From: Thermococcus nautili
GTDB lineage: Archaea; Methanobacteriota_B; Thermococci; Thermococcales; Thermococcaceae
DNA: 64,000 nt
Assembly: GCF_000585495.1 (NCBI RefSeq)
Contig: NZ_CP007264.1
Location: forward strand, 310,001-374,000
Direction: 5' to 3'
Shown in pieces: positions 1,122 through 3,013 of the stretch; position 1 is the first letter of the stretch; the number at the start of each line of letters is the position of its first letter. A model generated the notes under the pieces. It saw nothing but the letters and a program-made list of their open reading frames with translations, was not told the origin of the DNA and did no database searches. The position numbers and the translations under genes are program-made.

Positions 1122-1409
1122 TCACCCGAATGCGAAAAGCCTGTCGTCTTCACCCCTAAATACGCCGAGCCTCACGCCGGCATCTATGAACCCGTGTGCG
1201 TAGTTCAGCGCGGCAAAGGCCGTGACGTAGTCGCCCTTCTCGTAGTAGTACCTTGCGTCCTCAAAATAGCTCTTTGCCATCGTCAGGAAGTCCATCGCAA
1301 CCGCGTGGAGAAGGCTCTTCTCGTGAACGGCTACCTCAAGTCGCTTGAGGGCCTCTTCGGTGATTCTAAAATACTTCTGGAGCTTCTCATCGGTTACCTC
1401 GCGCTCCAC
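1122..1409 (-). CDS. DUF357 family helical protein
   Basis: A 95-residue, almost entirely alpha-helical protein rich in Glu, Lys, Ala and Tyr. The block [20 protein letters not shown] is typical of the archaeal DUF357 family, whose molecular role is unknown. It is the first gene of a two-gene unit with the DUF555 gene. The promoter is near 1440-1450, where the minus strand reads GGTTTATAAG. Upstream of that promoter begins the hairpin-rich gene-free region. Confidence 0.85.
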
Positions 1410-1458
1410 ACCGCTCGCCTCGGTCGTGCTTTGAAAGTCCTCTTATAAACCTTACCTC

Positions 1459-1778
1459 AAAACTTTGCTGGGCAAAGTTTTATCAAAGTTTGTAGCTTCT
1501 TCTAAAGCGCTAAGTTTTGAGTGATTTTCTAATCACCTAGCTCTTTTGAGAGGGAAAACTTTTCAGTTTGCTCCTTTACTGTGGGTTTACCTTTAAATCG
1601 ACGCCCGACGGGCGTCAAGAAAGAAGTAAACCCCTTGGAAAGGCTTTTTTGGTGTGTTCTCCTTTTGAAAAGTGCAATTTTGCAAGCAAAATCTGCTCTA
1701 CTTGAGCCTTGGATTGGGAGCTACTAACTTTTGGTGAAGCTTTTTCTAAAAACTTCAATCACCGACCTTGGTCAAACT
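1459..1778. repeat. Structured repeat unit, copy 1
   Basis: First copy of an ordered set of three modules. Module a (1459-1492) is an AAAACTTTGC hairpin followed by ATCAAAGTTTGT. Module b (1584-1640) reads GGGTTTAC, an AT-rich run, a GC hairpin, then AAACCCCTT. Module c (1757-1778) is a 22-base block beginning AATCACCGACCTTGGTCAAA. In this copy, module c opens into a larger branched fold: an outer stem CTTGGTCAA (1767-1775) with TTGACCAAAG (1848-1857) encloses three further hairpins. Confidence 0.65.
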
Positions 1779-1961
1779 CTGTGGGACTTTCGTCCCTCGC
1801 GTCGAGCAAAGCTCGACGTTGCGCAGGCGAGCAAGCTTTAGGAAAGCTTGACCAAAGAAGTTCCCTTCTCACCAACGGGGCAAAAAGTCAGTCGTGCACT
1901 ATCGAGTTGAATAGTTCAACGCGAGTTTAAAATTAGTAGGGACTCAGCGAAACAGTTTCAA

Positions 1962-2016
1962 CGTATTTTTGGCGTCCTCCGGACGCCGTTTATAGAGTGA
2001 AACTCTCTCCAAAGAG
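1962..2016. repeat. Extra copy of module b
   Basis: A run of T, the hairpin GGCGTCC/GGACGCC (1971-1977/1981-1987), then TTTATAGAG and AAACTCTCTCCAAAG. It aligns with the module b copies at 1584 and 2211. The stem sequence differs but stays perfectly paired. Confidence 0.5.
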
Positions 2017-2083
2017 CAAGTCAAAAAGAAACTCCTTGCAAACTGTTGAATTTCAAAAAAGCACCTAACCTTCCGCCAGCGCT

Positions 2084-2385
2084 GAAACTTTGCCTTCGCA
2101 AAGTTTCATCAAAGTTTGTGATTCTTTTTGTAGGGGTTCCCTTGGGAGTGTTTGCGCTTTTAACGGCTTTTTGGAATGCGAATTCCTAAATTTTGGAAGC
2201 TTTCTTGCTTGGGTTTACTTTTTATCGCGCTCCGGAGGAGCGCTTTTAGAGAAACCCCTTCCAGAGGGTTCCTTGAAGAGAATTCTCTGAGAGTACCCAA
2301 TCCAATTGAGAGTGCAAACTTCTTAGAGTTGCGTTTTTAGAAAAGAATCACCGACCTTGGTCAAACTTCGCGCAGGCGAAGTTTG
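2084..2385. repeat. Structured repeat unit, copy 2
   Basis: Second copy of modules a-b-c in the same order and with similar spacing: a at 2084-2120, b at 2211-2270, c at 2346-2367. The 22 bases of module c are identical to those in copy 1. Here module c closes directly into a simple 10-bp hairpin (2362-2371/2376-2385) instead of a branched fold. The stems of a and b have different sequences from copy 1 but remain fully paired. Confidence 0.65.
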
Positions 2386-2512
2386 TAAGGGGGGCAGTAG
2401 GGGTTGTCGCCCCCCTGGGGGTCCCGACGTCATCGCAACCCCGTACTCGTCGGGCAGATGAAGTAGGGCAAAGGTCTTATAACCTTCACCCCAACCGAGA
2501 ACGGTGCGAAAT

Positions 2513-3013
2513 ATGGGTGGAACAGTGAGCAAGATAATCCGCTTCCGCGACGAGGAGGAGTTCATAGAGGATATAGACTTCGCCCTTGAGCGCTTCTCGT
2601 ATCTGGCGAGCAAGTACGGCCACAACCCGGTTGGGGGAATCGTCCTCTGGGACAGCATAGCGGTTAGGGACGACGAAGGGATAAAGCTCTTCCGCGTCGG
2701 TGAGTTCCCCTACTTCGAGGGGACTCTAAGGCTCGACCTCGAAACGCTCCGCGTCATGGAGCGCTACTTTGACGAGCTTGAGAGCAGGTGGGACGAGCTC
2801 ACCGTTGAGGAGATAAACTACTTCGTCGAGATGCTCAACGAGGCTTTAGGTGAGGAGAGGGTTTACTACGACGCCTACTCGCTCGGCCTCGACAGGAACA
2901 CCGCCTACATAATCCTCGATTTGGTTGCGCTCAACTACCTTGAGAGTGTTCTTGACGGGAAGGACAGGGAAATATTTGAGGAGGCCGTTGAGGTTCTGCT
3001 CAAGTACATCTAA
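2513..3013 (+). CDS. Uncharacterised acidic helical protein
   Basis: A 166-residue protein (MGGTVSKIIRFRDEEEF) that I do not recognise as a characterised family. It is rich in Glu, Asp and Leu, has no signal peptide, membrane segment or obvious catalytic motif, and looks like a soluble cytoplasmic protein. The ATG at 2513 is preferred over a frame-compatible start at 2504. A TATA-like CTTATAACC at 2474-2482 places transcription start close to the ATG, so the mRNA is probably nearly leaderless. It heads a run of plus-strand genes ending in queE. Confidence 0.75.
   Translation: MGGTVSKIIRFRDEEEFIEDIDFALERFSYLASKYGHNPVGGIVLWDSIAVRDDEGIKLFRVGEFPYFEGTLRLDLETLRVMERYFDELESRWDELTVEEINYFVEMLNEALGEERVYYDAYSLGLDRNTAYIILDLVALNYLESVLDGKDREIFEEAVEVLLKYI

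Follow-up and report, generated by a model that had tools for sequence, protein, structure and literature searches.

Near-palindromic DNA repeats at the 3' ends of stable-RNA genes in Thermococcus as likely substrates of chromosomal inversion

The window analyzed here, a stretch of 64,000 nucleotides from the chromosome of Thermococcus nautili (NZ_CP007264.1, positions 310,001–374,000), contains a non-coding block located between two protein genes. On one side of it lies a gene with a DUF357 domain (1122..1409, minus strand; Pfam PF04010), which forms one side of an inversion breakpoint and adjoins tRNA arrays in other species. On the other side lies a gene of 169 aa without a Pfam match (2504..3013, plus strand). 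Between them we found an array of repeats (1459–2388) and a 67-nt candidate structured RNA (2389..2455, minus strand), whose 3' end abuts the array. A Pfam search of the ORFs of the array gave no match and no coding content was found, so that a decayed gene of a known transposon, an outcome that the first-pass annotation had allowed for, is not supported.

The array is composed of three units in tandem (A1, B and A2), each of ~300 bp and near-palindromic over its full length. Unit A1 (1459..1778, plus strand) has a centre of the GACGCCC class, was aligned with 28 more tRNA-anchored copies and finds matches elsewhere in the T. nautili genome down to E = 1.7e-68. It begins with a left terminal hairpin AAAACTTTGC-TGG-GCAAAGTTTT (1459..1481; here and below, hairpins were read from the sequence and are given without strand). 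Its central hairpin GACGCCC-GAC-GGGCGTC (1600..1616), flanked by GGGTTTAC and GTAAACCC, is invariant across the unit alignment. The right subterminal part (1757..1778, plus strand) is a 22-base block that the repeat search found to be identical to 2346–2367. Unit B (1779..2083, plus strand, start approximate; core 1821–2083) has a GGCGTCC-class centre with the central hairpin GGCGTCC-TCC-GGACGCC (1971..1987), includes AGTCGTGCAC and terminates with CCGCCAGCGCT. Its matches in the genome reach E = 5.7e-61, and an HMM detected it in the window locus with E = 3e-70. Unit A2 (2084..2385, minus strand), an inverted repeat of the GCGCTCC class, contains a left terminal hairpin GAAACTTTGC-CTTC-GCAAAGTTTC (2084..2107), a central hairpin GCGCTCC-GGA-GGAGCGC (2227..2243) and a terminal hairpin on the RNA side, CAAACTTCGC..GCGAAGTTTG (2362..2385). 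Its canonical orientation, with the RNA gene first, is on the minus strand, where the GTAA junction that follows the last hairpin reads TTAC; several tRNA genes show a comparable junction, CCA-GTTAC-AAACTTCGCC.

The first-pass annotation had described the block as modules a, b and c recurring in the same order, with an extra b between them. Its repeats and coordinates were recovered by our repeat search, which returned the 38-nt module a pair (1456/2082), a 24-nt pair (1628/2252) and the identical 22-base block, and the three GC stems (1600–1616, 1971–1987 and 2227–2243) are indeed perfectly paired. The parts are not, however, separate modules: a is the left terminal hairpin, b the centre and c the right end, and the full unit folds back on itself because all three belong to one near-palindrome of ~300 bp. 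The extra b is the centre of the third unit, B (about 1779–2083). Module c had been described as simple in one copy and branched in the other; this difference arises where the right end of A1 continues into unit B, while A2 closes in its own hairpin (2362–2385).

The RNA candidate next to the array has two GC-rich helices and reads GCCCGACGAG..GGGTTGCGATGACGTCGGG ACCCCCAGGGGGGC..GCCCCCC. It is conserved in 51 of the 61 genomes of the genus, shows two pairs with compensatory change among 17 sequences, and may possibly contain a kink-turn-like internal loop. A search of Rfam with this candidate gave no match.

When the array was used as a query against the T. nautili genome, 96 matches were obtained on both strands (E <= 10; best non-self match E = 8e-72), which by our own count group into ~26 clusters, so that its earlier description as a repeat family proved correct. 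Further analysis of this genome covered the stretches surrounding these matches and the tRNA genes. Aligned copies share a common plan. The terminal hairpin is (C)AAACTTCGC..GCGAAGTTT(G) or (G)AAACTTTGC..GCAAAGTTT(C) and is followed inward by CATCAAAGTTnGTAGCTCC or ..GTGATTCC; the centre is GGGTTTAC..CGACGCCCnnnGGGCGTC..GTAAACCC, or a GCGCTCC centre instead, and the right end is a mirror image, GAGCTACTAACTTTTGGTGAAGCTT. In most copies the centre is located 145–153 nt (~148) past the start of the hairpin. The GC stems had been thought to drift in sequence while remaining paired. This does not hold, as GACGCCC and GCGCTCC represent sequence-conserved subfamilies with 29 and 23 exact copies, respectively, among 71 tRNA-anchored units, and the three b copies differ because each compared copy represents another subfamily. 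An additional recurrent block, the short palindromic repeat GTACTCTCAAACCCCCGGAGTGGGGCTTCGCCCCAC, was observed between or beside units at five loci (L023, L010, L014, L022 and L028). The structure of the arrays does not correspond to a CRISPR array, since short direct repeats with unique spacers are lacking. No name or earlier description of the family was found in the open-access literature, but one may exist elsewhere.

The clusters are anchored at stable-RNA genes. Twenty-one of the 26 (own count) directly follow an intact tRNA gene, in most cases 0–8 nt past CCA. Conversely, the tRNA model detects 44 tRNA genes, and in ~20 of these no more than a few nucleotides separate CCA from a terminal hairpin or a B-type end; annotation at the level of anticodons gives ~22 of 46 tRNAs with an array, i.e., about half. 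One cluster lies directly at the 3' end of the Pab160 H/ACA RNA (RF02796, 93 bits; L016:1474-1542), and the anchoring is therefore not confined to tRNA. Identical spacers (GTTAC, TCG, TAG, CAC and TAAG) occur at different tRNA genes, which means that the element, spacer included, has been joined exactly at CCA. At one locus (L018:1400-1850; genome 1,016,800-1,017,250) the array adjoins a truncated 3' fragment of tRNA-His, probably the scar of an integrated element. As a general origin of the arrays such scars are not supported, since a truncated tRNA was found only there and the other arrays lie behind intact genes. It should be mentioned that a protein gene at another locus (L028, about 1520–1530) ends with a TAG stop codon at which an array begins; this stop codon may be supplied by the TAG spacer of the element.

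To count such junctions in other genomes, we used a pattern running from the tRNA T-loop to CCA, then 0–8 nt and AAACTT, in 94 genomes of the family. In the 61 genomes of the genus to which the window belongs, 639 tRNAs were followed by this start of the terminal hairpin, compared with ~6 expected and a single hit in the reversed control. Most genomes of this genus contain 7–22 hits; the numbers per genome are 4–12 in genus g14, 2–6 in g11, 0–4 in g13 and 0–1 in the nine genomes of g12, which is probably Pyrococcus. A DNA search of 24 genomes outside the family gave no match to the repeats, nor did collections of plasmids, phages and viral contigs. In an exact-match scan of named genomes, 67 of 70 stretches were in Thermococcus or in MAGs of Thermococcaceae (or Thermococci) and three in bacterial MAGs. 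The latter are contigs of Peregrinibacteria and Clostridia (L224, L228 and L245) with the exact tRNA-plus-hairpin pattern; chance, contamination or convergent terminators may account for them, and we tentatively take them as chance or contamination.

This distribution resembles that of the REP/BIME elements of enterobacteria, short palindromic intergenic repeats that form mosaic clusters and prefer the 3' ends of transcribed genes. The Thermococcus arrays are likewise intergenic, palindromic and mosaic in their clusters, and lie at the 3' ends of genes, but their units are ~300 bp long, near-palindromic over their whole length, archaeal and placed nucleotides from the 3' ends of mature RNAs, and no associated transposase was seen among the loci, plasmids, phages and viral contigs covered. 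In a host element of this kind, palindromic DNA behind strongly transcribed genes would insulate or terminate transcription or absorb supercoiling; such an element could account for the position of the repeats directly 3' of the most heavily transcribed genes in many species. It could also account for their constant architecture (hairpin 0–8 nt past CCA, centre ~148 nt on) despite divergent sequence. We nevertheless regard such a role as unlikely: arrays are missing at half of the tRNAs, the nine genomes of g12 are almost devoid of them, and the G+C content of the array (43%, compared with 55% for the window) is low for a structure acting as RNA at 85 °C. A closer parallel in position is known from another hyperthermophilic archaeon, Methanopyrus kandleri, where about half of the tRNA genes are followed, at a distance of ~10 bp, by an 18-nt palindrome; this palindrome was interpreted as a processing signal and reported to be specific for M. 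kandleri (PMC5217627). The palindrome, the fixed distance and the proportion of tRNA genes are shared, whereas 18 nt there compare with 300-bp units in arrays in Thermococcus.

The array had been proposed as a possible new structured RNA, e.g., in our reading a tRNA-trailer RNA produced by read-through. The predicted folds are strong (z = -5.5, -4.2 and -8.4 against dinucleotide shuffles for the three units), and compensatory changes were found at 8 of 29 pairs in the 29 A1 units and, in the terminal hairpin, as G-C/C-G and U-A/C-G changes (10 sequences each). Covariation, whose absence was to count against the proposal, is thus present to some extent; however, it is not diagnostic because a DNA palindrome predicts it equally. 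Selection on an RNA strand should give G-U mispairs in excess of A-C mispairs. Among 84 distinct terminal hairpins next to tRNA genes, 65 of which are perfect, we counted 9 G-U versus 15 A-C, and in central stems 16 versus 36. The outer closing helix of the 29 A1 units did show an excess (22 G-U, nine of them in one column, versus about 5 A-C), as did whole arms (724:381). The whole-arm excess was not used as an RNA signal, since most of it is explained by a skew of that strand towards T and G, which is equally apparent from the T-T/A-A and G-G/C-C ratios. Loops of central stems occur about equally as TTC (21) and GAA (17), and hence neither strand is favored, as it would be for a stable RNA loop. 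No unit-specific co-evolution of the arms was detected, since left arms matched the right arm of their own unit no better than right arms of other units of the class (66.7 versus 65.1 and 78.7 versus 80.2). Finally, cmscan of the window and 11 loci against Rfam revealed no match to the array at or above the gathering score. Overall, the comparison of sequences gives no consistent RNA-strand signature, and although the palindrome is retained, DNA alone suffices to account for the degree of its retention; we consider a structured RNA very improbable.

Arrays are found at the endpoints of inversions. In T. nautili the gene order is tRNA-Ala-Val, an array (209.9–210.5 kb) and the rpl37Ae side (so named from a reading of the neighboring sequence, not from a family search), then ~101 kb further the DUF357 gene, the window array, the RNA candidate and the 169-aa gene. 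A distance of about 100 kb usually separates the DUF357 gene from the 169-aa gene in other species. The arrangement tRNA-Val, array, DUF357 was found in nine species (G001, G018, G074, G075, G013, G032, G010, G079 and G080), and the rpl37Ae side adjoins the RNA candidate in 18 species, with repeat units intervening in 15 of them. Judged by gene order, the window array and the tRNA-Val array are the two ends of a reciprocal inversion of ~101 kb, and both ends lie inside arrays. The DUF357 gene is also located at the arrays of tRNA-Arg, tRNA-Pro and tRNA-Leu (G007, G035 and G008, respectively), which indicates that this site has been used more than once. It should be noted that in six species (L177, L187, L189, L200, L206 and L212) the tRNA-Ala-Val pair is flipped together with its array, so that DUF357 is on the 5' side; this change amounts to a small inversion confined to that site.

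Strain 30-1 of T. nautili is the organism of the published work on "flipping chromosomes", in which a laboratory inversion was traced to a 176-bp identity and obtained again in vitro by means of IntpTN3 (Cossu et al., 2017; PMC5495485). At two tRNA-Gly loci (L021 and L025) we counted 176 columns from the anticodon mismatch to the next difference, with one interior mismatch discounted, as would be correct if it is a sequencing error corrected in PMC5495485. These columns comprise 41 nt of tRNA-Gly and 135 nt of the repeat (unit A1 with its spacer), and their number equals the published identity; unit A1 thus makes up 135 of the 176 identical bases of the published pair. By this 176-bp match and by position, the two genes appear to be BD01_1557 and BD01_1976. 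Cossu et al. described it as conserved sequence behind the tRNA, which in the text searched is not treated as a dispersed repeat family.

The association of arrays with rearrangement was also seen when tRNA genes of T. nautili were compared with those of another species (G034). In this single species pair, with up to 4.5 kb inspected and one mis-paired tRNA-Met excluded from the array group, the 3' neighbor beyond the array was kept at 5 of 21 tRNAs with an array in either genome versus 14 of 19 without (Fisher p = 0.004), while the 5' neighbor was kept at 18 of 21 and 16 of 19, respectively. At tRNA-Ser(CGA) (L102 versus L078) T. nautili carries a ACGTCCTTCGGACGT palindrome, and thus diverged units may be present at some of the tRNAs that were scored as lacking arrays.

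We consider it likely that these non-coding near-palindromic repeats at the 3' ends of stable-RNA genes of Thermococcus act as substrates of DNA inversion and are spread by recombination. Arrays behind different RNA genes have long similar or identical stretches in common, many of them inverted. Recombination between two inverted arrays would flip the part of the chromosome between them and leave the RNA gene intact, because the exchange would fall just beyond its 3' end; the same exchange could carry units from one locus to another and so give rise to mosaic arrays. We infer that the homology of the arrays, used by RadA or by a pTN3-type integrase of relaxed specificity, most likely drives the inversions, and that the units have most likely spread mainly by conversion or recombination. 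Several points speak against this reading. Synteny could be lost at the same positions through tRNA-targeting integrases, with no part played by the repeats, and 3' synteny would likewise decrease if inserts were exchanged at the 3' ends of tRNAs. The history of the window site is blurred by five species without the full array. At only 72–82%, the identity of most array pairs in this genome lies below the level presumed necessary for efficient homologous recombination.

The first of these points can be extended to the arrays as a whole: breaks may be made by tRNA-targeting integrases or by recombination within tRNA genes, so that arrays would be hitch-hikers marking old sites. For the integrase of pTN3, which has tRNA-Leu as its target, recombination of other identical segments is also known (PMC5495485), and the 176-bp segment is partly tRNA. 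However, the 101-kb inversion joined tRNA-Val with a locus other than tRNA, so that the array is the only shared sequence seen, and array-less tRNAs mostly retain their 3' neighbors. Hitch-hiking therefore seems quite improbable to us.

Another question is whether the units are non-autonomous mobile elements. The five species that blur the history of the window site (G011, G021, G088, G090 and G095) have DUF357 adjoining the RNA candidate. Comparison of the empty site CTTCAAA/GGGGGGC with the occupied site CTCAAA/ACTTTGC...GTTTGTAA/GGGGGGC revealed no clear target-site duplication. Since the locus is a rearrangement junction, the empty alleles of G011 and G021 may be deletions. For both reasons insertion with target duplication at this site is unsupported. 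An element derived from IS200/IS605 was rejected because there is no fixed 5' target, the spacers being GTTAC, CAC, TAG, TAAG, TCG, CAG or CAAC.

Like archaeal and bacterial MITEs, the repeats are non-coding and intergenic, have terminal inverted repeats and are present in tens of copies; they differ in their fixed orientation towards RNA genes, and neither a target duplication nor a parent transposon was found. A MITE-like element would insert at the 3' ends of stable RNAs as safe sites with an enzyme acting in trans, and inversions would be a by-product. The use of tRNA neighborhoods as safe sites is known for the eukaryotic retrotransposons Ty3 and the TREs of Dictyostelium; the likeness is limited to this use, as their distances are looser and the Thermococcus repeats are non-coding with an exact 3' junction. 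The same spacers at the junctions with different tRNAs, the varying presence at the same tRNA between species and the occupied/empty contrast at the window locus would fit such an element. So would tRNA-Ser(CGA), which in G001 has a left end of ~45 nt directly after CCA and in T. nautili does not; a search for clean occupied/empty pairs at tRNA genes yielded only this partial case. On the other hand, no target-site duplication is seen there or at the window locus, and no autonomous partner was found among the loci examined or the plasmids, phages and viral contigs; the latter three lack any match to the repeats. A1+B and similar composites are found repeatedly with one and the same junction, which resembles shared descent, and in the Cys and His cases the occupied and empty alleles differ in their 3' neighbor too, so that these cases do not amount to clean insertion. 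A MITE-like origin is possible, in our opinion, though not the probable one; it is compatible with inversion between arrays and differs in why the family exists. It is rather doubtful that there is a system recognizing stable-RNA 3' ends, in which a putative enzyme joins palindromic units precisely to the ends of mature RNAs (CCA in tRNA, the end of the H/ACA RNA) and arrays serve genus-wide as preferred exchange sites that leave genes undamaged.

For the annotation of Thermococcus genomes these results mean that the lead of a new structured RNA at the window array is removed as false, and that the sequence behind tRNA 3' ends should be inspected as a rule. The shuffling of Thermococcus chromosomes differs from that of Pyrococcus and could not be ascribed to mobile elements in earlier work (PMC2718504), and proposed endpoints at different tRNA genes were left unexplained because the tRNAs themselves share too little sequence (PMC5495485). 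A repeat family behind tRNA genes would provide the missing common sequence, and arrays at inversion ends could help to explain the fast shuffling of Thermococcus genomes.
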